A model generated the notes under the pieces. That model was not told the origin of the DNA, made no database searches, and worked only from the letters and a program-made list of their open reading frames with translations. Shown here one piece after another: positions 1-38,398 of a stretch of 64,000 nt of DNA. Within the stretch, counting starts at the first letter, position 1, and the number at the start of each line of letters is the position of its first letter. Source of the DNA: Cupriavidus basilensis (lineage in GTDB: Bacteria > Pseudomonadota > Gammaproteobacteria > Burkholderiales > Burkholderiaceae); contig NZ_CP062803.1 of the NCBI RefSeq assembly GCF_008801925.2, positions 186,001-250,000 of the forward strand. Reading direction: 5' to 3'. Both the position numbers and the translations under genes were made by a program.

Positions 1-831
1 GTGGAGAATGCCCAGCAGCGCGCCGTGGTGTTTCCGGTGACCTGCCCGTGGCAGGCGGTGCATGCGCACAGCACGCAGATCGAGCCGCCGCCGTCGCACC
101 AGCATGCGGACATCGACGCCTTCGGCAACAACGTGCTGTACTTCACCATCGACGTGCCGCACGACTACATGCAGCTCGCCTGCGAGAGCACAGTCAGCGT
201 CACGCCGCGCTGGGCGTCGCTCGACCCCGCCGCCAGCATGCCGTGGGAGACGGCCGTCGCCGCGCTGCGCTTTCGCGCCGGGCAGCCCTTCCTGCCGGAA
301 AGCGAGTTCTGCTTCGCCTCGCCCAACGTGGCGCTGCATCCCGATCTCAAGGCCTACGCGCTCGCCAGCTTCGCGCCCGGCGTGCCCGTGGTGGCCGGCG
401 CCATCGACCTGATGCATCGCGTGCACGCCGACTTCGAATACCAGACCACCGCCACCGAGGTCGATACCCCGGCGCTGCAAGCCTTCGGCCTGCGCAGCGG
501 CGTGTGCCAGGATTTCGCCCAGGTCATGATTGGCTGCCTGCGCTCGCTCGGCCTCGCGGCGCGCTACGTCAGCGGCTACCTGTGCACCGAGCCGCCACCC
601 GGCCAGCCCAGGCTGATCGGTGCCGACGCCTCGCATGCCTGGCTGTCGGTGTACTGCCCGCTGGCCGGCTGGGTCGACCTTGATCCCACCAACGACGTGC
701 TGGCCGACACCAGCCACGTCACGCTGGCGTTCGGGCGCGACTATAGCGATGTCTCGCTGCTGCGCGGCGTCATCGTGGGCGGCGGCGCGCACGATGTGGA
801 AGTGGAGGTCAGCGTGCTGCCGGTCGAGTAG
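1..831 (+). CDS. Transglutaminase-like cysteine protease family protein, 5'-truncated by the window edge
   Basis: Bacterial transglutaminase-like protein, a papain-fold family. The Cys-His-Asp triad is visible: Cys169 in GVCQDFAQ, His212 in ASHAW and Asp228 in DLDPTND (numbered from base 1). The family normally opens with a beta-rich domain starting some 20-30 residues before what is seen here, so the GTG at base 1 is probably an internal codon and the true start lies upstream. It is followed after 78 bp by an alpha-E gene. Those two families usually travel with a circularly permuted ATP-grasp protein in peptide-ligase/peptidase loci, and that partner would be expected just outside the window. 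The substrate is unknown. Confidence 0.85.
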   Translation: MENAQQRAVVFPVTCPWQAVHAHSTQIEPPPSHQHADIDAFGNNVLYFTIDVPHDYMQLACESTVSVTPRWASLDPAASMPWETAVAALRFRAGQPFLPESEFCFASPNVALHPDLKAYALASFAPGVPVVAGAIDLMHRVHADFEYQTTATEVDTPALQAFGLRSGVCQDFAQVMIGCLRSLGLAARYVSGYLCTEPPPGQPRLIGADASHAWLSVYCPLAGWVDLDPTNDVLADTSHVTLAFGRDYSDVSLLRGVIVGGGAHDVEVEVSVLPVE

Positions 832-909
832 GCACCGCGCCGCGGTCAGCGGCTGGCAAGCCAATTGCTTGCCAGTAGCCTGGGTTTGCCGAGAAAAGGG
901 GGAATCACC

Positions 910-1848
910 ATGCTAAGCCGCACCGCCGACCACCTGTTCTGGATGGCCCGCTACACCGAGCGCGCGGAAAACACCGCCCGCATGCTCGACGTCAACTACC
1001 AGGCTTCGATGCTGCCGCAATCGCCCGACGTGGCGCAGCAAGGCTGGCTGGCGATGCTCGACGTGACGGAGCTCACGCCGGTATTCGCCGCGCACCACGG
1101 CGCGGTCGTGCACGAGGAAGTGATCGATTTCATGGTGCGCGACCTGAGCCACCCGGCGTCGATCATGTCCTGCCTGCGCGCCGCCCGCGAAAACGCCCGC
1201 GCCGTGCGCGGCGCACTCACCACGCCGCTGTGGGAGACCATCAACACCACCTGGCTCGATGTCCAGCAGATGGTGGCCGACGGCATCCTGCGCCACGATC
1301 CGGCGCAGTTCTTCGAGTGGGTCAAGTTCCGCTCCCACTTAACGCGTGGCGTGGAAGCCGGCACCATGCTCAAGGACGAAGCCTACTGCTTCATGCGGCT
1401 GGGCACCTTCCTGGAGCGCGCCGACAATACCGCCCGCATTCTCGACGTCAAGTTCCAGGCCACCGACCTCAGCCTGCAGCAAGACGACTTCTACCAATGG
1501 GCCGCGGTATTGCGCTCCGTGTCGGGGCTGGAGATGTATCGCAAGGTCTATCGCTCGGTGGTCACGCCGGAGCGCGTGGCCGAGTTGCTGATCGTCCATC
1601 CGGATATGCCGCGGTCGCTGGCAGCCAGTTTGCGGGAGGTGGTTTCGTTGCTGGCGCAGGTGCGCAATGCGCGCTCAGTGGAGACGGAGCGACGGGCGGG
1701 GAAACTGCATGCCGAGCTTAAATTCACTCGGATCGAGGATATTTTTTCTGTCGGGATTCATGGGTGGCTTAGCGATTTTCTTCGCAGGATCCATGAGCTT
1801 GGGGGTGGGGTTAGTCGGGATTTTTTGATGAAGGGGGTGGGGGGGTAG
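910..1848 (+). CDS. Alpha-E domain protein (DUF403 family)
   Basis: 312-residue all-alpha protein of the alpha-E/DUF403 family, full length for the family. It opens MLSRTADHLFWMARYTERAE, the usual family start. The ATG at 910 is preferred over an upstream in-frame start at 865 because an AAAAGGGGGA Shine-Dalgarno lies just before it. Biochemical function is not established; it is genomically tied to transglutaminase-like and ATP-grasp partners, and the transglutaminase is directly upstream. The last 65 or so codons depart sharply from the gene's normal codon use: wobble C disappears and G and T dominate (only one C in bases 1801-1860). The reading frame stays open and the protein remains family-like, so this looks mutational rather than a frameshift. 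Confidence 0.85.
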   Translation: MLSRTADHLFWMARYTERAENTARMLDVNYQASMLPQSPDVAQQGWLAMLDVTELTPVFAAHHGAVVHEEVIDFMVRDLSHPASIMSCLRAARENARAVRGALTTPLWETINTTWLDVQQMVADGILRHDPAQFFEWVKFRSHLTRGVEAGTMLKDEAYCFMRLGTFLERADNTARILDVKFQATDLSLQQDDFYQWAAVLRSVSGLEMYRKVYRSVVTPERVAELLIVHPDMPRSLAASLREVVSLLAQVRNARSVETERRAGKLHAELKFTRIEDIFSVGIHGWLSDFLRRIHELGGGVSRDFLMKGVGG

Positions 1849-2538
1849 GGGGGGAGGGGGTAGGGTGTAGGGGCTTTTGGGGGGCTTTCGCTGTTTATTT
1901 CGTCGGCGTTGGTTTTTGCACCCAAGAGCCATACGACATCCCCCTGCGGGGGCTGCCGGTCACTCTTCTTTGCGTCGGCAAAGAAGACTAACGAGAAGAA
2001 AGCCGACCCTGCCGGGGGCAGAGCAATCGCGGGTGCTAGGGGCGCTGGTTTCGTCGTAGGGCCAGCGGTTCTGCTCGCTTCTGCCGGTACCGGTTTGACC
2101 GGCCACGAATCTGCCAGCCTCCGGGATTCGTGGTGAGGCCCCCGGTAGCAGACACCACTTGCTTCAAGCCGTCTGTCGCTCGCGGCGCGGCCGGCCACGA
2201 AGTTGCAGGCGCACCGGTTCCGTCGTGGGCGCGGTGGCACCGCCTTGATTAGCCCGAGACCCTGACCACCGCGCCCGCCCCACCACGAAACCATTGGCAG
2301 ACGATGTGTCGTGATGGTCCGCGCCGGTAACGGCAGATGGTCGAACGCTCACCGGGCAAAGCGATCAGGGGCACCACCACGTGACCATTGGGTAATGCAG
2401 TTACGATGGCCTTTGCGCCGGTAAGGCAAAGGCCAGCTAACACTCCGGGCCGTACGACGAAACCACCAATATTCGAAAGCCTTATTGCTCTGCCCCCGGC
2501 AGGGTCGGCTTTCTTCTCGTTAGTCTTCTTTGCCGACG

Positions 2539-3819
2539 TGTATAGACCGGGGACATAGGTGACGGGTGTGCGAGGACATGGTTGACACTTTCGGGCAATG
2601 AATCTGCCCGGAATCCGACCATGCCTTGGAGCACGCGCGACACCATGAGCCTTCGTCAAGAATTCATCCTTCTGGCCCAGCAAGAGGGCAGCAATCGCCG
2701 CGAGTTATGCCGGCGCTTCAGCATCAGTCCCCAGACTGCCTACAAATGGCTCGCGCGCTATGCCGAGCAAGGCGAGGCCGGTCTGGTCGACCGCTCTCGG
2801 CGGCCCAGTCGCAGCCCGGAACAGACCCACGCCGACCTTGAACAGGCCGTGATCGCGCTTCGCCAGCAGCATCCTGCCTGGGGCGGGCGCAAGATCAGCC
2901 GCCGCTTGCAGGACCTGGGGCATACCGAGGCGCCGGCTCCCAGCACTGTCACCTCGATCCTGCATCGCCACGGGCTAATTACGCCGGAGGCCTCGGCCAA
3001 ATCGGTGGCATGGCAGCGTTTCGAGCATCCCGAGCCCAACCATCTCTGGCAGATGGACTACAAGGGCTGGTTTGCCACCCGAGACGGCATGCCGTGTTAC
3101 CCACTGACGGTGCTGGACGACCATTCCCGCTTCAATATCCTGCTCACGGCCTGCACCAGGACCCAGACTGCAGTGGTGCAGCGCCATCTGCGCGAGGCTT
3201 TCCGTCGTTATGGGCTGCCGCTGCGCATCAACGCCGACAACGGTGCGCCCTGGGGCAGCCCTTCCCAACCCGGCCAGCTCACGGCTCTGGCGATCTGGTT
3301 GATTCGCCTGGGCGTGCGCTTGAGCCATAGCCGCCCCGCGCACCCACAAACCAATGGCAAGGATGAGCGGTTCCACCGCACCTTTAAGGCCGAGGTGCTC
3401 ACCGGCAACGACTTTGCTTCCTGCCGTTATGCGCAGCGCGCATTCGATCGCTGGCGCGATGTCTACAACCAGCAGCGACCTCACGAAGCCCTTGGCCTGG
3501 CGACGCCCGTCACGCGGTATCGGCCCAGCCCGAGGCCATATCCGGAGCAGTTGCCGCCCATCGAATACGGCCCTGACGACACCGTAGTGCAGGTCAAATG
3601 GCACGGCGAGCTCTGTTTCCAGGGACGTCGCTTCAAGGTTTCGAATGCCCTAGCCAAGCTGCACGTGGCGCTGCGCCCTGACGCCAGACACAGCGGCAAA
3701 TACGCCCTTTACTTTGCACATCATCGCTTCGGAAGCATCGACCTAAACGACCCGAATGCCGCTTAAAATGTGTCAACCATGTCCTCGCACATGTGTCACC
3801 CATGTCCCCGGTCTATACA
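2539..3819 (+). mobile_element. Complete IS481-family insertion sequence, 1281 bp
   Basis: Ends are 50-bp imperfect inverted repeats (2539-2588 and 3770-3819, four mismatches), beginning TGTATAGACC at both tips. A 6-bp target duplication, CCGACG, flanks it (2533-2538 and 3820-3825). It carries one transposase gene. The insertion splits the right arm of repeat element A exactly at the apex of an arm hairpin. The uninterrupted site is preserved in element B at 17409-17414, which confirms the boundaries. The intact ends and open reading frame suggest a recent, possibly still active copy. Confidence 0.93.
2621..3766 (+). CDS. IS481-family transposase
   Basis: 381-residue DDE transposase. The N-terminus has a helix-turn-helix (about residues 10-60, ELCRRFSISPQTAYKWLARY) followed by an rve/integrase-core domain. 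The catalytic triad is intact: Asp146 (WQMDYKG), Asp206 (NADNGAP) and Glu249 (GKDERFHRTF). The ATG at 2621, giving MPWSTRDTMSLRQEF, resembles starts of other IS481 transposases and is preferred over the in-frame TTG at 2582, which lies inside the left terminal repeat. It is the only gene of the element and would catalyse its cut-and-paste or copy movement. Confidence 0.92.
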   Translation: MPWSTRDTMSLRQEFILLAQQEGSNRRELCRRFSISPQTAYKWLARYAEQGEAGLVDRSRRPSRSPEQTHADLEQAVIALRQQHPAWGGRKISRRLQDLGHTEAPAPSTVTSILHRHGLITPEASAKSVAWQRFEHPEPNHLWQMDYKGWFATRDGMPCYPLTVLDDHSRFNILLTACTRTQTAVVQRHLREAFRRYGLPLRINADNGAPWGSPSQPGQLTALAIWLIRLGVRLSHSRPAHPQTNGKDERFHRTFKAEVLTGNDFASCRYAQRAFDRWRDVYNQQRPHEALGLATPVTRYRPSPRPYPEQLPPIEYGPDDTVVQVKWHGELCFQGRRFKVSNALAKLHVALRPDARHSGKYALYFAHHRFGSIDLNDPNAA

Positions 3820-4007
3820 CCGACGCAAAGAAGAGTGACCGGCAGCCCCCGCAGGGGGATGTCGTATGGCTGTTGGGTGCAAGATGCCACCGCCGACGAA
3901 ATAAACAGCGACCGCCCCCGCAGGGGGATGCCGTACGGCTGTTGGGGGCAAAGGCCATCGCCGCTCAAAGAAACAGCGACCAACACCTCATGGCCGCTAC
4001 CCAACCC

Positions 4008-4775
4008 CTATCCCACCAACTCCCGATGCAACGCCAAATACTCCAACGCCAACTTATGCCTCGGATCCAGGTGAATCATCGGCATCGCATGCTGATGCGA
4101 CTCCCGGATCTTCACCGACGACGACAACCGTGAATTCAACACCGGCAACCCTTCGCCGACCAGTTCCTCCACCAGTTGCAACGGCAAGGTGGCGCGCGGC
4201 TGGAACTGGTTGATCACGATCCCTTCGACTTCCAGGTCCGCGTTGTGGTCGTGCTGGATCTCTTTCACGTTGTCGAGCAGCGTGTAGAGCGCGCGGCGGG
4301 AGAAGTCGTCGCAGTCGAAGGGAATCAGGCAGCGCTGGACCGCAATCAGCGCGGAGCGGGTGTAGAAGTTCAGCGCGGGCGGGGTGTCGATATAGATGGC
4401 GTCGTACGCGTCTTCCAGCTCGATCAGCGCGTCGCGCAGCTTGTAGATCTTGTAGCGGGATTCGAGCTTGCCGTGCAGCGTATCGAGCTCGGGATGGGCG
4501 GGCATCACGTCGAGGTTTTCGAACGGCGTGGCGTGGATGAACGCGGTGACATCCAGCGGCTTGAAGCTGTATGTGAGCGCGGTCTCGAAGAAGTCGGCCA
4601 CCGTCGGGGTGGCCTCGGCGGCGTGCGCGCCGAGCAGGTACTGGCTGGAGTTGCCTTGCGCATCGAGGTCGATGACCAGGGTGCGCAGGCCTTCGCTGGC
4701 ACTGATGGCCGCCAGGTTGCAGACGATGGTCGACTTGCCGACTCCGCCCTTCTGATTAAATACGACGCGCCGCAT
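4008..4775 (-). CDS. Orphan ParA/MinD-type ATPase
   Basis: 255-residue deviant-Walker ATPase. The Walker A motif KGGVGKST has the two lysines of the ParA/MinD class (Lys9 and Lys14); the A' region LVIDLDAQGNSS and the Walker B-like IYIDTPP follow. The start at 4775 (MRRVVFNQKGG) is preceded by AAGGG; an upstream in-frame ATG would add nine non-conserved residues. ParA ATPases position DNA, plasmids or protein clusters using the nucleoid as a track. No parB or centromere-like array adjoins it, so it is an orphan. It lies 82 bp downstream of rodA on the same strand and could be co-transcribed with the elongation cluster, though its cargo is unknown. Its 3' end borders element A and is biased in base composition. 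Confidence 0.85.
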   Translation of the reverse strand: MRRVVFNQKGGVGKSTIVCNLAAISASEGLRTLVIDLDAQGNSSQYLLGAHAAEATPTVADFFETALTYSFKPLDVTAFIHATPFENLDVMPAHPELDTLHGKLESRYKIYKLRDALIELEDAYDAIYIDTPPALNFYTRSALIAVQRCLIPFDCDDFSRRALYTLLDNVKEIQHDHNADLEVEGIVINQFQPRATLPLQLVEELVGEGLPVLNSRLSSSVKIRESHQHAMPMIHLDPRHKLALEYLALHRELVG

Positions 4776-4857
4776 TTGAGCCCTTGGAGGTGAACGTTCC
4801 AAAGGACAGAGGATACCTTAGCCAGGTGTCATTTCAGCGGCCAAATCGCATGCCAGG

Positions 4858-6000
4858 CTATGTTTGTATCAGCCGCTTTTGCCGCGAGATACTCATCAGG
4901 ATCCCGATGCCCATGCCCAGCGTCACCAGCGCCGTTCCCCCATAGCTCAACAGCGGCAACGGCACGCCCACCACGGGCAGGATGCCGCTCACCATGCCCA
5001 TGTTCACAAAGGCATAGGTGAAGAAGATCAGCGTGATCGACCCCGCCAGCAGCCGCGAGAACAGTGTCGGCGCGTTGGCCGCGATGTATAGCCCGCGGAA
5101 GATCAGCAGCAGGTAGAGCACCAGCAGCACGGCGTTGCCGATCAGTCCGAACTCTTCGGAGAACACGGCGAAGATGAAGTCGGTGTGCTTCTCGGGGATG
5201 AACTCGAGGTGCGTCTGCGTGCCCTTGAGCCAGCCTTTGCCGAACACGCCGCCGGAGCCGATGGCGATGATGGACTGGATGGTGTGGAAGCCCTTGCCGA
5301 GCGGGTCGGTGGTGGGGTCCAGCAGCGTGCAGATGCGGTGTTGCTGGTAGTCGTGCAGGATCGGCCAGTTCACGCCGGGGGCGCAGATATCGTGCTCGAA
5401 GCTGACCAGCGCGGTGATGGCGACCACCGCGATGGCAAGCAGCGGCAGGATGATCTTCCACGACAGGCCGGCGAAATAGATCACATATAGGCCGGCGGCC
5501 ATCACCAGCAGGCCGGTGCCGAGGTCGGGCTGCTTGGCGATCAGGCCCACGGGCACGCCGAGCAGCACCAGCGCCAGCACAAAGTCGAACCACCTGACCG
5601 AGCCCTCCCGTTTCTGGAAGTACCACGCCAGCATCAGCGGCATGGCAATCTTCATGATCTCCGAGGGCTGGATCACCATGCCGACGTAGAGCCAGCGCCG
5701 CGCGCCCTTGCGGATCAGGCCGAACATGGCCACCGCCACCAGCAGGGCCACGCCGACCGTATAGAGCGGCACCGCCACCCGCATCAGCGTCTGGGTTGGC
5801 AGGTAAGCGATGACCCACATCACCAGGTAGGACAGCAGGATGTTGCGCAACTGGTCCTCGACCCGGCCGGGCATGTCGATGGCGGCGGAGTAGAGCGCCA
5901 CGATGCCGGTGGCGAACAGCAGGAAGACGATAAGCGCGAGTGGCTTGTCAAAGCCGGTCAGGGCCGTCTTGATGAACGATAGGACGCGGCGGCGATCCAT
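4858..6000 (-). CDS. rodA: Rod-shape peptidoglycan glycosyltransferase RodA (MrdB)
   Basis: 380-residue SEDS-family polymerase with about ten membrane helices. It polymerises lipid II into glycan strands in the elongasome, in complex with PBP2. The family signature KHTDFIFAVFSEEFG contains the catalytic Asp, and the C-terminal LPLLSYGGTALV motif is present. Length and topology are standard. It lies 12 bp downstream of mrdA, consistent with an mreB-mreC-mreD-mrdA-rodA transcription unit on the minus strand. No anomalies seen. Confidence 0.96.
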   Translation of the reverse strand: MDRRRVLSFIKTALTGFDKPLALIVFLLFATGIVALYSAAIDMPGRVEDQLRNILLSYLVMWVIAYLPTQTLMRVAVPLYTVGVALLVAVAMFGLIRKGARRWLYVGMVIQPSEIMKIAMPLMLAWYFQKREGSVRWFDFVLALVLLGVPVGLIAKQPDLGTGLLVMAAGLYVIYFAGLSWKIILPLLAIAVVAITALVSFEHDICAPGVNWPILHDYQQHRICTLLDPTTDPLGKGFHTIQSIIAIGSGGVFGKGWLKGTQTHLEFIPEKHTDFIFAVFSEEFGLIGNAVLLVLYLLLIFRGLYIAANAPTLFSRLLAGSITLIFFTYAFVNMGMVSGILPVVGVPLPLLSYGGTALVTLGMGIGILMSISRQKRLIQT

Positions 6001-6012
6001 GGCGCGTCTCCT

Positions 6013-8331
6013 TCAGCGTGAAGCGTTGCCGCCGGCCGCGGCGGGCGCGGTTGCCGGCTTGGCGCGGGGTTTCGAACTGGCGGGCGCCATGACGGGCGAC
6101 GCGGCCGGCGCGGGGGGCGGCGCCGGGCGGCTGTGGCCGAGGGCCTGCGCCATGCGCTGGTCCAGCGTCTGCACTGCCGAGGCGGGCGGGATGGCGGCGG
6201 GGTCGATCACCGGCGCCATCACGGCAGAGGCGGCCGTGGCGGAGGCGCCGGCGCGGGCTGCCACCCGCGCCGCCGGCACGCTGGCGCCTTCGCTGGTGGC
6301 GGCGGCTTCGCTCGCGCCCATGACGGTGGCGCTGGCGATGCTGGCGGTGTGGCCGGTGGTAAACACGCTGGGCGTATCCACGGGCGGCTTGCCGCCGGCG
6401 CGTTCGGACGCGGGCGGGGCGATGTTCGCCAGCTCTTCCGGCCACTTGCCCGTCAGATAGTAATCCATCACCTTGCGTGCGATCGGCGCGGCCACGGCAC
6501 CGCCGAAGCCGGCGTTTTCCACGATCATCGCCAGCGCGATCTTCGGGTTGTCGGCGGGAGCGAATGCGGTATAGAGCGCGTGGTCGCGCTTGCGCTCGTC
6601 CAGCGCGTGGTGGTTGTACTTCTCGTTCTTGCCCATGGTGAAGGTCTGCGCCGTCCCGGTCTTGCCGGCGGACTCATAGGCGGCGCCGGCGAACGCGCGG
6701 GCGGCGGTGCCCGAGTGCGTCACACCGACCATGGCGCGCTTGATCACGTCGATATCCGACTGCTTGAGCGGCAGGCGATAGCTTTCCTTGGGCACGGTGA
6801 GCTCGCGCTCGCGGCTGACCGAATCCTCCACCGCTTTGACCAGGTGGGGCTTCATCGCGATGCCGTTGTTGACCAGGATGGAGGTGGCGTTGGCCAGCTG
6901 CAGGATGGTGAAGCTGTTGTAGCCCTGGCCGATCCCCAGCGAGATGGTTTCGCCGTCATACCATTTCTGCTGCTCGGGCTTGCGGTAGGCGCGGCGCTTC
7001 CAGTCGGTGGAGGGCAGGATGCCGCGGCTCTCGCCTTCGATGTCGATGCCGGTGATCTGGCCGAAGCCCAGCGGCTTCATGAAGTCGTGGATGGCGTTGA
7101 CGCCCATGTCGCGCGCCAGCATGTAGTAATAGGTGTCGCACGACTGCACGATGGAGGCGTTCATGTCCACCCAGCCGTGGCCGCCTGGCTTGTCGTCGCG
7201 GAAGGTGTGGTTGCCCAGCGTGAACGAGCCCGGATCGTGGAAGCCCCAGGCTGCGGTGCGCTTGCCGGTGGTGAGTGCCGCCAGCGCCATGAACGGCTTG
7301 TAGGTGGAGCCGGGCGGGTAGGTGCCGCGCAGCGGGCGGTTCAGCAGTGGCTTGTCGGGCGAGCCGTTGAGCTCGTTCCAGGTATTGGTGTCGATGCCTT
7401 CGACGAACAGGTTGGGGTCGTAGGTCGGCTTGGAGACAAAGGCCAGGATGTCGCCCGTGGCCGGCTCGATCGCCACCAGCGCGCCGCGCTTGTCGCCAAA
7501 CAGCGCCTCGGCCAGTTGCTGCAGGCGGATGTCGAGCGACAGGATCAGGTTGTTGCCGGGCGTGGCGGGGGAGGTGGACAGCGTGCGGATGGGGCGTCCG
7601 CCCGCGCTCACTTCCACTTCCTCGAACCCGGTCAGGCCGTGCAACTCGGTTTCGTAGCTTTGCTCGATGCCGATCTTGCCGATGTAGTTGGAGCCCTTGT
7701 AGTTGTCGGCGTCCTTGCGCGGATCGTATTTGGCGCCTTCGGCGCTGTTGGCCTCGTCCATGGCCTCGATGCGTTCCTGGTCGCGCTGGGAGATGCGGCC
7801 CAGGTAGCCGATCACGTGCGAGGCGGACTCGCCCAGCGGGTACTGGCGGAACAGCCGGGCACGCACGTCCACACCCGGAAAGCGGAAGCGCTGGGCGGAG
7901 AAGCGCGCCACTTCCTCGTCGGTGAGCTGGCTGCGGATCGGCAGGCTCTCGAAGCTGCGCGACTCCTCCATCAGGCGCTTGAAGCGGCGGCGGTCGCGCG
8001 GCTGGATGTCGATCAGCTGGGCCAGTTCCTCGATGGTGTTGTCGAGCGTGTCGGACAGCTTGGACGGGGTGATTTCCAGCGTGTAGGCGGAATAGTTGCG
8101 CGCCAGCACCACGCCGTTGCGGTCCATGATGATGCCGCGGTTGGGCTCGATCGGCGCCACCGAGATGCGGTTGTCCTCGGCCTTGGCCGAGTACTGGTCA
8201 TGCTTGTACCACTGCAGCCACAGGAAACGGCTGAACAGCAGGCCGAAGCAGATCACGGCAAACAGGCCCGCCGCCGCTACGCGGATGCGGAAGCGGCCGA
8301 GCTCCTGTTCGACATTGCGTATTTCGGTCAT
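6013..8331 (-). CDS. mrdA: Penicillin-binding protein 2 (elongation transpeptidase)
   Basis: 772-residue class B PBP, the transpeptidase partner of RodA. One N-terminal membrane anchor (about residues 15-37) is followed by the PBP dimer domain and the transpeptidase domain with the active-site motif STYK (Ser342), SCD (SxN-type) and KTGTAQ. The family usually ends some 15-25 residues after the last conserved block; here a further Ala/Pro/Ser-rich low-complexity tail of about 130 residues follows YYLTGKW. The tail is probably periplasmic and disordered. The gene lies downstream of mreD, separated by a GC-rich hairpin. Confidence 0.95.
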   Translation of the reverse strand: MTEIRNVEQELGRFRIRVAAAGLFAVICFGLLFSRFLWLQWYKHDQYSAKAEDNRISVAPIEPNRGIIMDRNGVVLARNYSAYTLEITPSKLSDTLDNTIEELAQLIDIQPRDRRRFKRLMEESRSFESLPIRSQLTDEEVARFSAQRFRFPGVDVRARLFRQYPLGESASHVIGYLGRISQRDQERIEAMDEANSAEGAKYDPRKDADNYKGSNYIGKIGIEQSYETELHGLTGFEEVEVSAGGRPIRTLSTSPATPGNNLILSLDIRLQQLAEALFGDKRGALVAIEPATGDILAFVSKPTYDPNLFVEGIDTNTWNELNGSPDKPLLNRPLRGTYPPGSTYKPFMALAALTTGKRTAAWGFHDPGSFTLGNHTFRDDKPGGHGWVDMNASIVQSCDTYYYMLARDMGVNAIHDFMKPLGFGQITGIDIEGESRGILPSTDWKRRAYRKPEQQKWYDGETISLGIGQGYNSFTILQLANATSILVNNGIAMKPHLVKAVEDSVSRERELTVPKESYRLPLKQSDIDVIKRAMVGVTHSGTAARAFAGAAYESAGKTGTAQTFTMGKNEKYNHHALDERKRDHALYTAFAPADNPKIALAMIVENAGFGGAVAAPIARKVMDYYLTGKWPEELANIAPPASERAGGKPPVDTPSVFTTGHTASIASATVMGASEAAATSEGASVPAARVAARAGASATAASAVMAPVIDPAAIPPASAVQTLDQRMAQALGHSRPAPPPAPAASPVMAPASSKPRAKPATAPAAAGGNASR

Positions 8332-8355
8332 GGTACTGCGTCAGCCTTGCGGTTT

Positions 8356-8380
8356 GCCGCGCCCCCCAAGGGGGCGCGGC
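8356..8380. promoter_or_regulatory. Perfect GC-rich hairpin between mreD and mrdA
   Basis: An 11-bp perfect inverted repeat (8356-8366 with 8370-8380, GCCGCGCCCCC) with a 3-nt loop sits in the 72-bp gap between mreD and mrdA. On the minus-strand transcript it is not followed by a U-run, so it is more likely a stability or attenuation element than a full terminator. It could set the ratio of mre to mrd-rod products. Confidence 0.5.
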
Positions 8381-8403
8381 GGGACTTCGGTTGGGGTAAA
8401 GCG

Positions 8404-8916
8404 TCAGATCGGCCGGGTTTCGTCCACGTCGGCGCTGCGGCGCTGCGGCGCCAGCAGCATGCCGGTGGCCAGCGGCCACAGCAGCGCTTCGATGCCCGGC
8501 GCCAGCAGCAATTGCCAGCCGGGCAGCGGCGCGCCCATGGCCAGGCGGATCAGCACCGGCACAGCGTGGGCGATAAACAGCAGCGGCAGCACGTGCAGCG
8601 CCTGGGTATAGACCGTGAACCACAGCACGCGGCGATGGATGGTGATGGCGAAGTACGCCAGCAGCGAGTAGGCCATGGCGTGCTCGCCCAGCAGGCGCGC
8701 GTCATGCACGTCCATCAGCAGGCCGAGCGCGAAGGCCACACCCATGCCGACCTTGCGCGGCTGGTGGATGTTCCAGAACACCAGCACCAGCGCCACCATG
8801 TCGGGCACCCACAGCGTGGTGCCCCAGGGCATCAGGTTGAACAGGAAGGCCAGCACGAAACTCAGCGCAATAAACGCGGGGTTGACCGGGCGCAGCAGAT
8901 ATTGGGGATTGGTCAA
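8404..8916 (-). CDS. mreD: Rod shape-determining protein MreD
   Basis: 170-residue polytopic inner-membrane protein of the elongasome with five or six predicted helices. It starts with TTG, overlapping the mreC stop codon by four bases (TTGA), so translation is probably coupled. The order mreC-mreD-mrdA is the canonical one. MreD links MreC to the membrane complex. Length is normal for the family. Confidence 0.93.
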   Translation of the reverse strand: MTNPQYLLRPVNPAFIALSFVLAFLFNLMPWGTTLWVPDMVALVLVFWNIHQPRKVGMGVAFALGLLMDVHDARLLGEHAMAYSLLAYFAITIHRRVLWFTVYTQALHVLPLLFIAHAVPVLIRLAMGAPLPGWQLLLAPGIEALLWPLATGMLLAPQRRSADVDETRPI

Positions 8917-9965
8917 CGCTTGGGCTCCTTGGCCGCGGCGGGCTTGTCTGCGGGCTTTTCCGCCGGCTTGTCAGCAGGCTTTGCGGCAGGCTTCTCCGCG
9001 GGCTTGTCGGCGGGCTTGTCGGCCGGCCGCTCTCCTGAGCGTTCGGCATCCCGCACGCCCGGGCGGTTCGCCCTGACGCTGCGCGCTTCCTTGGCGTCGC
9101 GTGGGCCGTCGATGGACTCGCGCGGCGGCAACTGCGCTTCGTAGCGGATCACCAGCAACTGGCGGTGCGAACGCACGCCGGCCACCGGTTCGCAGTACAC
9201 GCGCGAGAAGGCGGTATCGGCCTTGCGCTCGATCTGGACGATCTTGGCCACCGGCAGGCCTGGCGGGTAGGTGCCGTCCAGGCCGGAGGTCACCAGCAGG
9301 TCGCCCTGCTGCAGGTCGGCCGAGGCGGCCATGAAGCGCAGGTCGAGCAGGCCGGCGCGGGCACCGCCAAAGGCCACGCTGCGCAAGCCGTTGCGCACTA
9401 CCTGCACGGGAATGGCCTGCTCCTTGTCGGTCAGCAGCGTGACTTCCGACTGGAACGGCGAAACCCGGGTGATCTGGCCGATCACGCCGCGTTCGTCGAT
9501 CACGGGGTAGCCCGCGCGCAGGCCATGCTGGCTGCCGCGGTCGATCACGATGCGTTGGCTATAGGGGTCGCGGGCGTCGTACAGGATCTCGGCCGCCGTC
9601 ACCGGCGTGGCCGACTGCTGCACCAGGCCAAGCAGCTTGCGCAGCTGGTTGTTCTCGGCCTCGAGCTGGGACTGGCGCACCGCCCCCTCGGCCTCGGTCA
9701 CCATGCGGCGCTTGAGGTCGCGGTTCTCGCTGGCGAGGGCGGCGGAAGACTGGGCGTAGTCGAAGGTGGCGCGCAGCGCGTCGCGCGGCACCAGCACCGT
9801 GCGCTCCACCGGCATCAGCACGGTGGCGGCAACCTGGCGCACCACGCGTAGGGCGTCAAAGCGCGCATCAACGATGAGCAGCGCCAGCGCGATCGTCACA
9901 TAGAAGACGAGGCGCGCAACGGCGGAAGTGCCCTGCTTGAAGAGCGGCGGCGGAGTGTAATCCAT
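8913..9965 (-). CDS. mreC: Rod shape-determining protein MreC
   Basis: 350-residue bitopic protein. A membrane helix (about residues 16-35) is followed by a coiled coil (about 70-115) and the two beta-barrels of the MreC periplasmic domain (for example VIDERGVIGQITRVSPFQSE and YPPGLPVAKI). The C-terminus carries a low-complexity tail of about 40 residues built from repeating KPADKPAEKPA units, not needed for the family fold. MreC organises the elongasome and activates PBP2. It lies 202 bp downstream of mreB. That gap holds no gene and no recognisable terminator. Confidence 0.95.
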   Translation of the reverse strand: MDYTPPPLFKQGTSAVARLVFYVTIALALLIVDARFDALRVVRQVAATVLMPVERTVLVPRDALRATFDYAQSSAALASENRDLKRRMVTEAEGAVRQSQLEAENNQLRKLLGLVQQSATPVTAAEILYDARDPYSQRIVIDRGSQHGLRAGYPVIDERGVIGQITRVSPFQSEVTLLTDKEQAIPVQVVRNGLRSVAFGGARAGLLDLRFMAASADLQQGDLLVTSGLDGTYPPGLPVAKIVQIERKADTAFSRVYCEPVAGVRSHRQLLVIRYEAQLPPRESIDGPRDAKEARSVRANRPGVRDAERSGERPADKPADKPAEKPAAKPADKPAEKPADKPAAAKEPKR

Positions 9966-10167
9966 TTACCCGTGCGCTGGCAGAAAGGTCCCCCGGTGCC
10001 GCAGGCACGACTGCACCGCGGCACGCCAGCCGGAGTGGCTGGGGCGTCGCGGCGCGGTGTGGTGCACCGGGACTGGCCGGGTCGGGAGGGTAGCGCGGCA
10101 AGGCGCTGCCCCGACCAGGTAGTCCGGCAGGCCGCGTCGCGCCACGTGCGAATCCTCTGCTTACGCT

Positions 10168-11850
<1,683 letters not shown>

Positions 11851-12150
11851 ATGGCTCTCGACCTATCCGACGTCAAGCGCATCGCCCACCTTGCCCGCAT
11901 CGAAATCAACGATGACGAGGCTGGGCAGACGCTTGTGCAGCTCAATCAATTCTTCTCCCTGGTCGAACAGATGCAGGCGGTCGACACCACCGGCATCGTG
12001 CCGCTGGCCCACCCGCTGTCCGCGGTGCGCGAGATGTCGCAGCGGCTGCGCGACGACGTGGTCACCGAGCCCAGCCGCCGCGAGGACTACCAGCGTCCCG
12101 CCCCGGCCACCGAAGGCGGCCTCTACCTGGTGCCCAAGGTCATCGAATAA
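11851..12150 (+). CDS. gatC: Asp/Glu-tRNA amidotransferase subunit C
   Basis: 99-residue GatC, the small belt-like subunit that wraps GatA and GatB in the GatCAB complex, which converts mischarged Glu-tRNA(Gln) and Asp-tRNA(Asn) to the correct amides. The start [19 protein letters not shown] is typical, and the upstream ATG-less extension to 11767 is rejected. The C-terminal YLVPKVIE is the family ending. It is the first gene of the operon, 95 bp before gatA. Confidence 0.95.
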
Positions 12151-12245
12151 AGGTCAGACGCACCCCGGCCCTCGACCCAGCGGCTGCGCCGCGCCGCCTA
12201 CAGGCTGCGCCGGCAGCCATCACCTGCCAAGCCAAACCGACCGAC

Positions 12246-13751: not shown

Positions 13752-14215
13752 TCGCAGCGCGCTGGCTGTCGCGCATTGTGCTCGGCATCGGGCTGGCCGC
13801 TGCATTGGCGGCCTGCATCCCGCTGCCGCGCTTTGGCGGCAAGCCCCCGCCCATTGCCAGCCGCGACATCGACCTCGCCGGCGATTGCCGCCGCACCGAG
13901 GAAGACGGCTTTCGCGAGGATGCGCAGGTGCGCGTGGCGGACAACACCGTGCAGCAGTTGTCGTGGAAGCTGTGGGTGGGCAAGCGCGGCTCGTGCAGCT
14001 TCAACCTGGCCGAATTCCGCCAGACCCAGAAGAAGCCGCATATCGAGCTGCGCGCCAACGACGGCAGCGCCTGCAAGCTGATGATCTGGCAGGATCCGCG
14101 CCGGGTCACGCTCGCGCATGCCAATTGCGAGGCACGTTGCTCGCCGGGCATCTACGAAGAAGCCTGGCCGGTGATGTTCGAGCCTGGCGGCGGTGGCTGC
14201 GCGCAGACCCGATGA
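13748..14215 (+). CDS. Small predicted outer-membrane lipoprotein of unknown function
   Basis: 155 residues. The N-terminus has a positively charged start, a hydrophobic stretch and a lipobox LAAC ([12 protein letters not shown]), so it should be lipidated and exported. The mature part has several cysteines ([29 protein letters not shown]), suggesting disulfides in the periplasm. I do not recognise a domain. It starts inside the gatA stop (ATGA) and its own stop overlaps the next start the same way, so it is locked into the gat operon despite no evident link to tRNA amidation. Confidence 0.75.
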
Positions 14216-15269: not shown

Positions 15270-16730
15270 ATGCAATGGGAAGTGGTGATCGGCCTCGAGA
15301 CGCACACGCAGTTGTCGACGGCCTCCAAGATTTTTTCCGGTGCCTCCACCGCCTTCGGCGCGGCGCCCAACACGCAAGCCTCGCCGGTTGACCTGGCGCT
15401 GCCCGGCGTGTTGCCGGTGCTTAACCGCGGCGCGGTCGAGCGCGCCATCCAGTTCGGCCTGGCGATCGGCGCCACCATCGCGCCGCGCAGCATCTTCGCG
15501 CGCAAGAATTACTTCTACCCCGACCTGCCCAAGGGCTACCAGATCAGCCAGTACGAGCTGCCGGTGGTGCAGGGCGGCAGCATCAGCATCCAGGTCGAAG
15601 GCAAGAAGGGCGAAACCTACGAAAAGACCGTGCAGCTCACGCGCGCCCACCTCGAGGAAGACGCCGGCAAGTCGCTGCACGAAGATTTCGCCGGCATGAC
15701 CGGCATCGACCTGAACCGCGCCGGCACGCCGCTGCTGGAGATCGTCACCGAGCCCGACATGCGCAGTTCGGCCGAGGCCGTGGCCTACGCCAAGGCCCTG
15801 CACGCGCTGGTGATGTGGCTGGGCATCTGCGACGGCAACATGCAGGAAGGCAGCTTCCGCTGCGACGCCAACGTGTCGGTGCGCCCCTACGGCAGCCCCA
15901 AGCTGGGCACGCGCCGCGAGATCAAGAACCTGAACTCGTTCCGCTTCCTGCAGCAGGCCATCGACTACGAAGTCCAGTGGCAGATCGCCGAGATCGAGGA
16001 TGGCCGCGAAATCCAGCAGGCCACCGTGCTGTTCGACCCGGACACCGGCGAGACGCGCGCCATGCGCACCAAGGAAGACGCGCACGACTACCGCTACTTC
16101 CCCGACCCCGACCTGCTGCCGCTGGAGATCGACGCCGCCTGGATCGCGCGCGTGAAGTCCGAGCTGCCGGAGCTGCCGGTGGCGATGCAAGCGCGCCTGG
16201 TGTCGCAATACGGCCTGTCTGCCTACGACGCCAGCGTGCTGACCGCCTCCAAGTCGCTCGCGAACTATTTCGAGGCGGTGGTCGCCGAAGCCGGCGCGGC
16301 CAATGCCAAGCCAGCTGCCAACTGGCTGATGGGCGACGTGTCGTCGCTGCTCAACCGCGAAGGCATCGCGCTGGAAGCCGCCCCGGTCAAGCCGGCACAG
16401 CTGGCCAAGCTGCTGGTGCGCATTGCCGACGGCACGGTGTCCAACAACACGGCCAAGAAGGATGTCTTCCCGGCCATGTGGGCGGGTGAGGAAGGCGCCG
16501 ACGCCGACGCCATCATCGCGGCCAAGGGCCTCAAGCAGATGTCCGACTCGGGCGAGCTGGAAAAGATCATCGACGACGTGCTGGCTGCCAATGCGAAGTC
16601 GGTGGAAGAGTTCCGCGCTGGCAAGGAGAAGGCGTTCAATGCGCTGGTTGGCCAAGCCATGAAGGCCACCAAGGGTAAGGGGAATCCTGCTCAGGTGAAT
16701 GAGTTGTTGAAGAGGAAGTTGGGGGCGTAG
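15270..16730 (+). CDS. gatB: Asp/Glu-tRNA amidotransferase subunit B
   Basis: 486-residue GatB, the kinase-amidotransferase subunit that phosphorylates the mischarged aminoacyl-tRNA and transfers ammonia. The family signature [18 protein letters not shown] is present, as are the C-terminal helical YqeY-like domain and the [12 protein letters not shown] ending. An 86-bp gap of short ACACGTAG-like direct repeats separates it from the hydrolase. The last 35 codons shift to G/T wobble (6 C against 27 G in 16681-16740) as the gene approaches repeat element B. Confidence 0.97.
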
Positions 16731-16764
16731 CGTGTAGGGGGTGTAGGGGCTTTTGGGGGGCTTT

Positions 16765-17490
16765 CGCTGTTTATTTCATCGGCGGTGGCATCTTGCACCC
16801 AACAGCCATACGACATCCCCCTGCGGGGGCTGCCGGTCACTCTTCTTTGCGTCGGCAAAGAAGACTAACGAGAAGAAAGCCGACCCTGCCGGGAGCAGAG
16901 CAATCAGGCTTATGTGGGGCGGTGGTTGCGTGGTACGGCCCGGAGTGTTGGCTGGCGGATCCTACTGGCCCATAGGGCATCGCTACTGCATTACCCAATG
17001 GTCACGTGGTGGTGCCCCTGATCGCTTTGCGCGGTGAGCGTTCGACCATCTGCCGTTACCGGCACGGACCATCACGACACATCGCCCGTCAATGGTCTCG
17101 TGGTGGGGCGGGCGCGGTGGTGAAGGTCTTGGGCTAATCAAGGCGGTGCCACCGCGCCCACGACGGAACCGGTGCGCTTGCAACTTCGTGGCCGGCCACG
17201 CCGCGAGCGACAGACGGCTTGAAGCAAGTGGTGTCCGCTACCGGGGGCCTCACCACGAATCCCGGAAGCCGGCAGGTTCGTGGCCAGTCAAGCCAGTACC
17301 GGCAGAAGCCCGCCGGCACTCCGGGCCGTACGACGCAACCACCGAGGCCCATGAGCCTTATTGCTCTGCTCCCGGCAGGGTCGGCTTTCTTCTCGTTAGT
17401 CTTCTTTGCCGACGCAAAGAAGAGTGACCGGCAGCCCCCGCAGGGGGATGTCGTACGGCTTTTGGGTGCAAAAGCCAACGCCGATAGAAA
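16765..17490. repeat. Palindromic intergenic repeat, element B (uninterrupted copy)
   Basis: Second copy of the family seen as element A, with its interior in the opposite orientation. Left arm 16795-16904 and right arm 17360-17470 are about 110 bp each and near-perfect inverted repeats. The arm hairpin TCTTCTTTGC/GCAAAGAAGA with loop CGAC is at 17400-17423, the site hit by the IS in copy A. The interior (16905-17360) holds CACGAA-type boxes but no credible reading frame. Short hypothetical proteins can be translated from the arms in several frames; these are artefacts of the repeat. The remaining gap to 17595 is C/A-rich. Confidence 0.88.
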
Positions 17491-17595
17491 CGAACCAACG
17501 AGCCCACACATCCAAGCAGCCAACGCCAACCACTCCCCCAAAATTTCCCCTTAACCATTTGCTACACTGCCCCCCAAACAATCCGGTTGAAGCCA

Positions 17596-18264
17596 ATGAA
17601 CGCCCAAGAAGTTGCCTCCTACCTGCAGACCAATCCCCAGTTCTTCGAAGACAACGCCGAACTGCTGGCCGCGGTGCAACTCACCAGCCCGCACAGCCAC
17701 CGCGCGGTGTCGCTGCAGGAGCGCCAGATGGAAATCCTGCGCGAGAAAAACAAAGGCCTGGAGCTGAAGCTGGCGGACCTGGTTCGCCACGGCCATGACA
17801 ACGACCGCACCCAGCAGCGCATGCACGCCTGGCAGTTGCGCCTGCTGGCCGAGGTGGACTCGCACGCGCTGCCGTATGCGGTGCAGGACGGCTTGCAGCA
17901 GGTGTTCGACGTGCCTGGCGTGGCCCTCAAGCTGTGGAATGTGGCGCAGAGCTACGCGCACATGGAAGTGGCGCAGGGCGCGAGCGAAGACGTCCGCCTG
18001 TTTGCCGAGGGCCTGCGCGCGCCGTATTGCGGCGCCAACAGTGGCTTCGAGGCCGCGGCCTGGCTGGAGCGCGACGACATCGCCTCGCTGGCCATGGTGA
18101 CGCTGCGCGTGCCCACGCGCGACGCCGGCACGCTCGGCGCGGCATTTGGCCTGCTGGTGCTGGGCTCGCCCGAGCCGCGGCGCTTCCATGAGGGCATGGG
18201 CACGGCCTATCTGGCGCAGATCGGCGAAGTGGCCGGTGCCGCGCTGAACCGCCTGCGCGACTGA
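17596..18264 (+). CDS. DUF484 family protein, xerC partner
   Basis: 222-residue DUF484 protein. The N-terminal motif VASYLQTNPQFFEDNAELLA and the coiled-coil stretch at residues 45-75 are family features, followed by a GAF-like region. ATG at 17596 is used rather than the TTG at 17587. DUF484 genes are very often directly upstream of xerC, as here, where the stop and the xerC start overlap by one base (TGATG). Function is unknown; the linkage suggests chromosome segregation or recombinase control. Confidence 0.88.
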   Translation: MNAQEVASYLQTNPQFFEDNAELLAAVQLTSPHSHRAVSLQERQMEILREKNKGLELKLADLVRHGHDNDRTQQRMHAWQLRLLAEVDSHALPYAVQDGLQQVFDVPGVALKLWNVAQSYAHMEVAQGASEDVRLFAEGLRAPYCGANSGFEAAAWLERDDIASLAMVTLRVPTRDAGTLGAAFGLLVLGSPEPRRFHEGMGTAYLAQIGEVAGAALNRLRD

Positions 18265-36205: not shown

Positions 36206-36700
36206 TCAGCTGCCCTGGCGTACCTTGGACAGCAGCTTGGTGGTGGAGCGGTCGTGCAGGAACGCGATGGCATGCGCCTGGCCGCCCCAGCTGCGCACCA
36301 GGCGGGTTTCTTCCAGCGTATCGATGTCGTAGTCGCCGCCCTTGACATAGATGTCCGGGCGCACCAGCCGGATCAGCTCGACCGGCGTTTTCTCGCGGAA
36401 CATCACGACCAGATCCACCGATGCCAGCGCCGCGATCAGCGCCATGCGATCCGATTCGTGGTTCAGGGGACGGTCGTCACCCTTGCCGAGCATGCGCACT
36501 GAGGCGTCGCTGTTGACACCGACTACCAGGCTGGCGCCCAGGGCCTTGGCCTGCGCCAGGTAGGTGGCGTGGCCGCGGTGGAGGATGTCGAAGACGCCGT
36601 TAGTGAAGACTAGCGGGCGGGGGAGGGTGGCTAGTTTTTCTGCTAGCGCGGTTGGGTTGTCGGGGGGGACTAGTTTGGATTCGAAGGTTGGGGGGGGCAT
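36206..36700 (-). CDS. rfaE2: D-glycero-beta-D-manno-heptose 1-phosphate adenylyltransferase
   Basis: 164 residues. Nucleotidyltransferase for ADP-heptose, a precursor of lipopolysaccharide inner core. Motifs TNGVFDILHRGHATYL (HxGH) and VKGGDYD are present. The ATG at 36700 gives MPPPTFESK, a usual family start; the in-frame TTG further up is rejected. There is no clear Shine-Dalgarno. The first 35 codons are markedly T- and A-ended on the coding strand, in line with the flank bias of element C next to it. Confidence 0.93.
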   Translation of the reverse strand: MPPPTFESKLVPPDNPTALAEKLATLPRPLVFTNGVFDILHRGHATYLAQAKALGASLVVGVNSDASVRMLGKGDDRPLNHESDRMALIAALASVDLVVMFREKTPVELIRLVRPDIYVKGGDYDIDTLEETRLVRSWGGQAHAIAFLHDRSTTKLLSKVRQGS

Positions 36701-36902
36701 GATGGAGGTGTTGGGGTAGCCGGTGGGTTCTGCGATTGTCTTCGTGTGAGGGCGCAACTTCAATGTCAACTGTTTAACTGCAACGGCTTAACGTCAAAGG
36801 CTGAAAGTCAAAGGCAGTTTCACCTCCCCTGCGGGGAGGCGACCTACTTTCTTGTCTCGCCAAGAAAGTAGGCAAAGAAGCGACCCGGATGGGGCGACCC
36901 CC

Positions 36903-37008
36903 CCTCGTCGGCAGGCAAAAAGAGCGGCCGGGGGCCAAACTCACATCGCCTTAGGGCGATGCTCAGACATGGCCCCCTCTTTTCCGCTCTTTTTGCCTGC
37001 CGACGAGG
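36903..37008. repeat. Left triple-nested hairpin of element C
   Basis: A 25-bp perfect inverted repeat (36903-36927 with 36984-37008) encloses an 8-bp one (GGGGGCCA at 36930-36937 with 36970-36977) and a 7-bp one (CATCGCC at 36944-36950 with 36955-36961). All share one centre, so the strand can fold as a single long interrupted stem or extrude as a cruciform. Confidence 0.85.
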
Positions 37009-37220
37009 CGCCCCATAACGGGAGATGAAAACCCAGACGGCTCGCTGCGCATCGCGGGGAGGTGATTGCCGCCTGGGGGCGGAAATCACGTCTACACCGC
37101 ATGGTGATTTGACGACATCGCTCTCGCGCTGGGTCAGCCGTGTTTCCCGCCTGGGGGCGGGAAACACAGGAGCGCGATGCGAAGCGAGCCGTGAAGGTGT
37201 GCCAAGGCCGTATGGGGCGC

Positions 37221-37324
37221 CTCGGGATTTCACGAAAAGAGCGGAGAAGAGGGACCCATGTCTGAGTATCGCCTTAAGGCGATGCGAGTTTGGGTCCCGG
37301 CCGCTCTTTTCGTGAAATCCCGAG
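37221..37324. repeat. Right triple-nested hairpin of element C
   Basis: A 24-bp perfect inverted repeat (37221-37244 with 37301-37324) encloses GGGACCCA (37251-37258 with 37291-37298) and the 16-bp perfect palindrome ATCGCCTTAAGGCGAT (37268-37283). The plan is the same as the left hairpin, with different outer sequence. Confidence 0.85.
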
Positions 37325-37534
37325 GGGGTGTCGCCCCATCCGGCGCGCCTTCTTTGCCTACTTTCTTGGCAAGACAAGAAAGTAGGTCGCCGCGCCGCAG
37401 GCGTGGTGAAACTGCAGTTGAAGTTAAGCCGTTGCAGCCACAACCCAACACCCCAAAAAAACAAAACCCCATCAACCGATGGGGCCCGTCCCGCCGAAGG
37501 CGCCAAAACGACACCCCCAGCCAAAAAACCAACC

Positions 37535-38398
37535 TTATGCCTGCGCCGGCTGCGCACCACCCGCCGCCTGCAACCGCACATTCAACTCCTTCCGATACCG
37601 GTTCAAATCCTGCACGGTCTCGAAAGTGCGCTCGAACAGCAGCGACATATTGTGCAGGATCCGCTCGATCACCTTCTTCTCCCAGCCTTCGTCGAAGCGG
37701 ATCTGCTCGTCGAGCCAGTGCTCGAGCCAGTCCGGGTCCGGCAGGCGCGACTGGATGGTGTCGTTGGGGAACAACGCCTTGTTGACGTGCAGGTTGGTCG
37801 GGTGCAGCGGCTTTTCAGTGCGGCGGGCGGAGGCCATCAGCACGCCGATCTTGGCGAAGGCCGAGCGGGCGCTGTCGCCGAACTGGTTCAGGTATTTCTT
37901 CATGTAGCGCAGGTAGGCGCCGCCGTGGCGGGCTTCATCCTGCGACAGGGTGCGGTAGATCTGCTTGATCACCGGCTCGGTGTGCCATTCGGCGGCACGG
38001 CGGTACCAGTGGTTGAGGCGGATCTCGCCGCAGAAATGCAGCATCAGGGTTTCCAGCGGCGGGGCCGGGTCGAACTCGAAGCGCACGGCGTGCAGCTCTT
38101 CTTCGGTCGGCACCAGGTCCGGGCGGAAGCGGCGCAGGTATTCCATCAACACCAGCGAATGCTTCTGCTCTTCAAAGAACCAGATGCTCATGAAGGCCGA
38201 AAAGTCGGAATCGTGGCGGTTGTCGCGCAGGAACATCTCGGTGGCGGGCAGGGCCGACCATTCCGTGATGGCATTCATGCGGATCGTCTTGGCCTGGTCG
38301 TCAGTGAGCAGGCTCGGGTCGAAGGAATCCCAGGGGATGTCCTTGTCCATGTGCCAACGTACCGCTTCCAGCGATTTGAACAGTTCGGGGTAGAGCAT
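37535..38398 (-). CDS. Ferritin-like di-iron protein
   Basis: 287-residue four-helix-bundle protein. Two ExxH metal motifs are visible, FEEQKHS and QDEARHG, with extra acidic residues in the paired helices, as in ferritin-like and acyl-desaturase-like families. No signal peptide, so cytoplasmic. Typical of Cupriavidus but without an assigned reaction. Its 3' end lies against element C and shows wobble bias. A possible Fur-type site overlaps its promoter. Confidence 0.75.
   Translation of the reverse strand: MLYPELFKSLEAVRWHMDKDIPWDSFDPSLLTDDQAKTIRMNAITEWSALPATEMFLRDNRHDSDFSAFMSIWFFEEQKHSLVLMEYLRRFRPDLVPTEEELHAVRFEFDPAPPLETLMLHFCGEIRLNHWYRRAAEWHTEPVIKQIYRTLSQDEARHGGAYLRYMKKYLNQFGDSARSAFAKIGVLMASARRTEKPLHPTNLHVNKALFPNDTIQSRLPDPDWLEHWLDEQIRFDEGWEKKVIERILHNMSLLFERTFETVQDLNRYRKELNVRLQAAGGAQPAQA

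Follow-up and report, generated by a model that had tools for sequence, protein, structure and literature searches.

Palindromic elements of the window and the composition of their flanks

We have analysed a stretch of 64,000 nucleotides from Cupriavidus basilensis (contig NZ_CP062803.1, positions 186,001 to 250,000 of the forward strand; "the window"), part of a genome of 8.94 Mb that we refer to as G000. The window contains three long palindromes, two copies of "element A" and one copy of "element B", and the DNA on both sides of each is depleted of cytosine on the strand that runs 5' to 3' into the element, here called "the into-strand". Element A copy 1 (1880..3987, like the other elements listed without a strand) is a long quasi-palindrome with inverted end units of about 100 bp at 1880-1978 and 3820-3919, and a second, diverged right end unit that reaches up to 3987; it was delimited from inverted repeats, anchor matches and the setting of its edges at 1880 and 3987. 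An IS481-type insertion sequence (IS; 2539..3819, plus strand, ends judged by eye), with a transposase open reading frame (ORF) at 2621-3766 and matches to rve, HTH and LZ_Tnp_IS481, splits this copy without being part of the palindrome. Element A copy 2 (16756..17507, 752 nt) is IS-free, and its arms (16793-16956 and 17308-17471) are 164 nt each, 93% complementary and 351 nt apart; as a single DNA strand, it folds at -314 kcal/mol, versus -155 +/- 5 kcal/mol in 20 shuffles (z = -30). Element B (36749..37471) is a palindrome unrelated to A, built of nested inverted repeats.

Element A copy 1 is flanked by two genes whose 3' ends point towards it, an alpha-E domain gene on the left (910..1848, plus strand; Pfam PF04168) and a ParA/MinD-like ATPase gene on the right (4008..4775, minus strand; Pfam PF13614 and PF01656). 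The first-pass annotation of this locus had drawn attention to a mirror-symmetric strand bias around the element, and its base counts are exact: 39 G, 13 T, 7 A and 1 C at 1801-1860, 28 C and 7 G at 3961-4020, and 21 C and 10 G at 4021-4080. Its statement that wobble C disappears over the last 65 codons of the alpha-E gene has to be softened, as wobble C is depleted there (9/65, with 4 in the last 32 codons, versus 119/247 elsewhere) but not absent; in the ParA-like gene, 2 of the 40 codons at the 3' end are C-ending, versus 116/215 elsewhere. The stretch 1863-1912 is common to both copies of element A, so the element may include the innermost 17 bp or so of the left G-rich tract.

The same bias recurs at all three palindromes. 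On the plus strand, C is depleted in the left flanks of element A copy 1 (1640..1879, holding the 3' end of the alpha-E gene), element A copy 2 (16600..16755) and element B (36560..36748), and on the minus strand in the corresponding right flanks (3988..4200, holding the 3' end of the ParA-like gene; 17508..17680, holding the 5' end of a gene that points away; and 37472..37640), all delimited from skew counts. Among 6388 overlapping 120-bp segments (step 10), the 25 highest and the 12 lowest GC skews all adjoin the three palindromes, the positive ones starting at 1731-1821, 16641-16671 and 36561-36661 on the left flanks, and the negative ones at 3951-3971, 17461-17531 and 37441 on the right flanks; this distribution rules out chance as the source of the skew.

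Profile of the flanks across the genome

Family A has been measured at 25 loci (48 flanks) of the own genome; of the 29 own loci that were fetched, six without an end-unit match (L047, L053-L055, L063 and L064) were dropped. In successive 25-bp bins from the edge, the C content of the into-strand is 0.163, 0.106, 0.138 and 0.194, next to a G content of 0.40-0.46 and a T content of 0.24-0.29, while beyond 175 bp the values are about 0.30 for C, 0.33 for G and 0.18 for T. The mean skew is 0.46 on the left and 0.41 on the right, and skew above 0.1 on both sides occurs in 22 of the 23 two-sided copies of A and in 14 of the 14 two-sided loci of B, the latter from two genomes. The mirror skew that had been predicted for other copies of element A is therefore found at nearly all of them, decaying over about 175 bp.

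The elements lie mostly at gene ends: 36 of the 48 flanks of family A were scored as a gene 3' end facing the element, on simple codon-score gene calls of our own (the right flank of L039 was scored as a 5' end, though it resembles a missed convergent gene). In these 36 genes, wobble C in 50-bp bins from the element rises through 0.02, 0.06, 0.17, 0.30, 0.34 and 0.40, and reaches 0.49-0.51 beyond 400 bp. A general bias of gene ends is ruled out, since in the last 50 bp of control genes that end over 1500 bp away from element A, wobble C stays at 0.34 (24 genes convergent with their neighbour) and 0.41 (the remaining 96).

Family B was located through a shared site, where B occupies the position of element A in a genome of 95% identity. 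Its flanks (19 in the own genome and 16 in the relative G023, some at orthologous sites) come from 12 fetched places of the own genome plus the window copy and from 8 places of G023, among the matches listed. The profile matches that of A, with C at 0.10-0.19 within 100 bp and background reached by about 225 bp. Among 300 Burkholderiales genomes, 48 match the core hairpin of B; they belong to 32 of 139 genera and include the own genome. Across the order, the signal is weaker: the mean into-strand skew between 60 and 240 bp from the core is 0.21, 0.25 and 0.18, versus 0.02-0.07 farther away, and skew above 0.2 is seen in 43-48% of the near flanks versus 14-29% of the far ones. This sample, which has no control set, consists of the 20 of 29 fetched loci in which the core could be placed, with 22 flanks contributing to the first bin and 21 to the later ones; the other nine of the loci L231-L259 had no local core match.

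Among 60 genomes of the genus, 6 match the end region of element A, and exact matches to its 23-base core were found in nine stretches, only in C. basilensis OR16 and "Burkholderiaceae bacterium 16", among named genome contigs from which the own genome of the window is perhaps excluded. A Y1 transposase is a conceivable mobiliser of the elements, as in REP/BIME repeats with their TnpA-REP, and three Y1_Tnp matches occur genome-wide. No Rfam match above the gathering score was obtained for the elements in a scan of window positions 1-20000; a scan of L069, L210 and L177 gave, as its sole match, a group II intron (RF01999, 109 bits) at 2749-2866 of L069 (genome G024), directly after or interrupting element B. 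In the scanned stretches, the elements therefore match no described structured-RNA family by this score.

Several further features accompany the elements. Stretches related to the IS481-type insertion sequence occur at nine other places with 89-99% identity, inside or adjoining element A or its end units (the loci named besides window 2539-3819 being L041, L044, L048, L052, L058, L059, L061 and L066), which suggests that this IS targets the palindrome. Tandem, diverged end units of about 70 bp are frequent at the ends of element A (L042, L045, L049-L052, L056, L065 and window 3893-3979), as if the ends were growing outward. Telomere-like GGGGGTA/GGGGGTAA runs follow stop codons beside the elements, with the G-strand running 5' to 3' into the element (flanks of L042, L057, L059 and L062, and window 1836-1865), and at L090 in G023 more than 25 consecutive G residues lie between the gene stop and a B element.

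Strand, gene orientation and sequence context

In order to separate the polarity towards the element from the coding strand, genes whose start faces the element and which thus point away from it are informative; we examined 13, of which 11 are independent, against 155 control gene starts. On their coding strand, wobble G is 0.16 within 100 bp, 0.26 at 100-200 bp and 0.42-0.46 farther away, while wobble A is 0.21, 0.14 and about 0.04, respectively. Wobble G is reduced in codons 2-10 (13/99 versus 425/1395 in controls, p=1.4e-4) and at 30-100 bp (73/264 versus 1357/3720, p=0.004). The effect is uneven, as 6 of the 11 genes start at least 80 bp from the edge and in 4 of the other 5, 7-11 of 39 early codons still end in G. 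The clearest case is a gene that points away from element B (36209..36700, minus strand, our own ORF call), with 25 C, 11 A, 2 G and 1 T at the wobble positions of its first 39 codons. The opposite coding-strand bias of away-pointing genes means that the loss of C follows the polarity towards the element and not the coding strand; the change is confined to one strand and switches strand across the element.

The bases next to the lost cytosines matter little. At fourfold wobble sites, C retention is 0.36, 0.31 and 0.31 after C, G and T, respectively (a preceding A was not sampled, and the values describe standing composition, not events), and across neighbour contexts it spans 0.28-0.40, with no strong preference. 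At these fourfold wobble sites, such evenness rules out a deaminase with a strong context at the adjacent positions, and no strong 5' T (TpC) preference of the APOBEC type is present.

Comparison with relatives and outgroups

We have compared these flanks with two relatives, G023 (98% identity over the alpha-E query, few matches to A) and G024 (95%, many matches to A), and with three outgroups, G021, G025 and G035. Among 21 loci of G023, five hold A remnants of 27-46 bp, one an A piece of 253 bp (L092), one a B (L090) and 14 neither; A or B sequence is present at 15 of 17 loci in G024, B sequence at 2 of 20 loci in G021, and no A or B match was found at 19 loci of G025 and 18 loci of G035. Over the last 40 codons, mean wobble C is 0.11 in G000 (below 0.20 at 31 of 36 gene ends), 0.17 in both G023 (32 ends) and G024 (19 ends), and 0.39, 0.32 and 0.32 in the outgroups. 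Among 77 outgroup gene ends, a count that skips ends differing by more than 40 bases in length, 56 have at least 0.28 wobble C (versus 2/36 in G000), 11 lie at 0.20-0.28 and 10 fall below 0.20, two of the latter being ends in G021 that carry B sequence.

The same skew at orthologous sites without the element had been named as the observation that would contradict the proposal, and taken literally it is half found, as G023 lacks a full A and is nevertheless skewed. This is qualified by the short A remnants at some of its sites, by its close relationship and by its higher wobble C, which exceeds that of G000 at 24 of 28 gene ends, equals it at 3 and is lower at 1; the single lower case is the left side of L052, where G023 carries B, and the right side of the same locus follows the usual direction. 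The outgroup flanks are mostly normal, and the dependence on the element is thus seen comparatively, with eight exceptions that are taken up below.

When fourfold sites are polarised with the outgroups (those with wobble C below 0.28 being excluded), 1 of 50 ancestral Cs within 100 bp of the element is kept, the others having changed by C>G (0.72), C>T (0.20) and C>A (0.06), while at 400-760 bp 0.77 of 531 are kept.

The site next to the alpha-E gene has itself changed occupants across the relatives (L068, L069, L072 and L074): G000 and G047 carry element A there and G024 carries element B; in G021 a B-like element begins at the end of a contig, and G023 has a short remnant of a hairpin. It seems that unrelated families of palindromes can reuse such a site.

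Recent substitutions on the element-bearing lineage

For recent changes, the alignment of G000, G023 and G024 covers 24 flanks. By the search for A and B matches, G023 has no full element at 23 of these, and at the left side of L052 it carries B. On the branch leading to G000, C>T occurred at 22 of 482 sites within 150 bp versus 40 of 3977 at 300-800 bp (p=1.9e-7), and the mirror change G>A at 7 of 1069 near sites (p=7.1e-7); the three other classes tested over all sites, G>T, A>G and C>G, were not significant. The rate declines with distance from the element (5/47, 8/182, 9/253, 5/317, 4/724, 19/1544 and 21/2433 in order of increasing distance, i.e. 0.106, 0.044, 0.036, 0.016 and 0.006 per C in the first five bins), and a bootstrap over flanks gives ratios of 2.0-8.3 for near over far C>T and 2.9-16.5 for C>T over G>A. 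At fourfold sites, both C>T (9/96 near versus 7/558 far, p=1e-4) and C>G (4/96 versus 4/558, p=0.02) are elevated. At codon positions 1 and 2, 8 of the 9 recent C>T changes are silent CTG>TTG.

The G023 branch shows the reverse, with C>T at 3/482 near sites and T>C at 37/615 near versus 16/1874 far sites. Parallel C>T in G000 and G024 was considered as the source of these 37 changes and rejected, and they are kept as reversions because only about 1 parallel change is expected (CCT 16 versus CCC 420). Deeper outgroups at 21 of these coding sites are mixed (C at 9, G at 3, T at 9), and at 18 of the G000 C>T sites they carry C at 14, T at 2 and G at 2. Without polarisation, sites within 150 bp that have T in G000 and C in G023 outnumber the reverse by 59 to 9 (p=4e-10), versus 56 and 64 at 300-800 bp; there is no bias between A in G000 with G in G023 and the reverse (14 versus 19), nor between the C/T counts at the 12 flanks where B is kept in both genomes (8 and 11). 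The predicted strand-specific C>T difference between sites with and without the element is accordingly present in the element-bearing strain.

Cytosine is lost to T and G on both into-strands over about 150-200 bp, in an element-associated, strand-specific and distance-dependent manner, and the loss was still under way on the lineage that retains the elements. The proposal that cytosine deamination (C to T) leaves this pattern holds only in part: C>T alone does not account for the composition, as C>G also contributes. Pure C>T deamination is ruled out by the long-term excess of C>G (0.72, versus 0.20 for C>T) together with the recent fourfold C>G.

Interpretation and alternative explanations

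We consider recurrent exposure of single-stranded DNA, most likely as resected 3' tails after cleavage of a hairpin, to be the probable cause of this loss of C to T and G (roughly 60%), judging from the sequences. The palindrome would extrude a hairpin during replication, and the hairpin would be cut, with SbcD, which the genome encodes, as the candidate nuclease; resection in the 5' to 3' direction would then leave the into-strands as 3' single-stranded tails, on which cytosines may deaminate or be lost. Copying over uracil would give C>T, and C>G could come from bypass of abasic sites by DnaE2-type polymerases. Once the element is lost, the process would halt and the flanks would drift back. 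Two proteins of the genome exceed the cut-off of the family PRK05672, which we take to be the error-prone polymerase DnaE2. A precedent for the C>G part exists in Caulobacter, where, according to passages of a published study, ImuB and ImuC are required for G:C to C:G transversions after UV (PMC3901139).

Several points weigh against this reading. Eight of the 77 outgroup ends, in G025 and G035, are skewed and have no A or B match (both sides of L042, L052 left and L059 left; L044 left, both sides of L046 and L066 right), and they count against a strict rule that links element and skew; palindromes that were lost or have yet to be described may account for them. The recent C>T changes are unevenly spread, the left flank of L046 holding 7 of the 22, with at least one in 11 of the 24 flanks and none in 13; when this flank is removed, 15/451 remain (p=2.7e-4). 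Five divergent triple-aligned flanks gave near C>T at 1/89, a number of flanks too small to be informative. Long-term change is mostly C>G while recent change is mostly C>T, a gap that may stem partly from the fact that the Cs still present lie at twofold or leucine positions, at which T is the sole silent replacement. RecBCD normally degrades DNA up to Chi, and tails that start at the break are not obviously given. Lastly, in E. coli, one break per replication cycle is repaired without a detectable consequence for mutagenesis, according to the abstract of the study (PMC4213011), whose assay may or may not register an effect confined to 150 bp.

In the outgroups, the loci at which gene ends strongly lose wobble C with neither A nor B recognised are L103, L104 and L113 in G035 and L119, L126 and L128 in G025.

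The same strand-specific damage to single-stranded DNA could also arise without a double-strand break, if forks stall or reverse at the hairpin or if gaps arise there on the lagging-strand template. Hairpins block forks, and the damaged strand fits the flank upstream of the fork; a fork that arrives from one side should, however, mark mainly one flank, and the likeness of left and right flanks in nearly all two-sided loci of both families tells against a one-directional effect, which leaves this a doubtful but by no means negligible possibility. Pausing of RNA polymerase or R-loops at the element, exposing the non-template strand of convergent genes, would agree with the many flanks of A that face a gene 3' end, where the into-strand is the coding strand; genes that point away nevertheless lose coding-strand G, i.e. 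C on the template strand, and gene ends distant from A keep their wobble C, so that transcription is a decidedly unlikely cause.

Selection might instead favour a G/T-rich, C-poor strand beside the hairpin, for example by avoiding pairing or by helping repair. Relaxed selection could then explain why C came back in G023 once the element was lost, and the prevalence of silent CTG>TTG among recent changes at positions 1 and 2 indicates that amino-acid selection filters; CTG>TTG and the fourfold changes, however, oppose the wobble-C-rich usage of the genome, and the like profile occurs beside both palindrome families, unrelated as they are, and in genes of both orientations, which makes this explanation improbable. 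Insertion of the elements into sequence that was already G/T-rich would be in line with their location at gene ends and with the ten outgroup ends of low wobble C, eight of them without a recognised element; as the main cause it is largely refuted by the mostly normal outgroup ends and by the polarised changes, the differences having arisen after divergence, and we regard it as hardly credible.

Relation to known systems and significance

A close counterpart of the proposed hairpin cleavage and resection is the palindrome-induced cleavage by SbcCD in E. coli studied by the Leach laboratory, which shares a long palindrome, a hairpin and chronic replication-linked breakage that is tolerated in growth (breakage would be the shared step here), while its abstract and outline mention no local mutational footprint, unlike what is seen beside the elements described here (PMC4213011). 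PMC4245961 and PMC3315005 are listed on the same system. A likeness in outcome is found in kataegis, the clustered, strand-coordinated mutation of cytosines at breaks, in which C is lost on one strand, with a switch at a central point, by C>T and C>G. To our knowledge, clusters of that type are eukaryotic, driven by APOBEC and in TpC context, while the present ones are bacterial, chronic, fixed at a site and without strong neighbour preference. The palindromes of the Leach laboratory are reportedly engineered. Fungal repeat-induced point mutation (RIP) likewise ties C>T to repeats; it mutates the repeats themselves, while here it is the unique flanking DNA that changes, on one strand per side. 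Interspersed palindromes that often adjoin gene 3' ends are also known as REP/BIME/REPIN, a setting that our elements share, but REPs measure 20-40 bp, according to passages of PMC3733652, and elements of about 750 bp with 164-nt arms are not REP/BIME units.

The ingredients are already known; among the matches listed in the open-licence PMC literature, no report of a standing, two-sided and element-associated mutational footprint beside natural bacterial palindromes was found. We tentatively propose, at somewhat less than even odds, that the giant palindromes of Burkholderiales are permanent, self-inflicted break sites, a bacterial, context-free counterpart of kataegis, where each copy rewrites about 150-200 bp of any gene on either side, one strand per side and from C to T and G, until it is lost. 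If this is true, local strand skew would record at base resolution, and from sequence alone, the places at which single strands are chronically exposed in bacterial chromosomes, and would be a readable fossil of such exposure in any genome; genomes would then allow tests of what hairpin cleavage and the processing of ends lead to in vivo in wild bacteria. A repeat shapes the codon use of its neighbours, and methods that rely on codon usage, that detect horizontal transfer or that infer phylogenies could misread the resulting bias.

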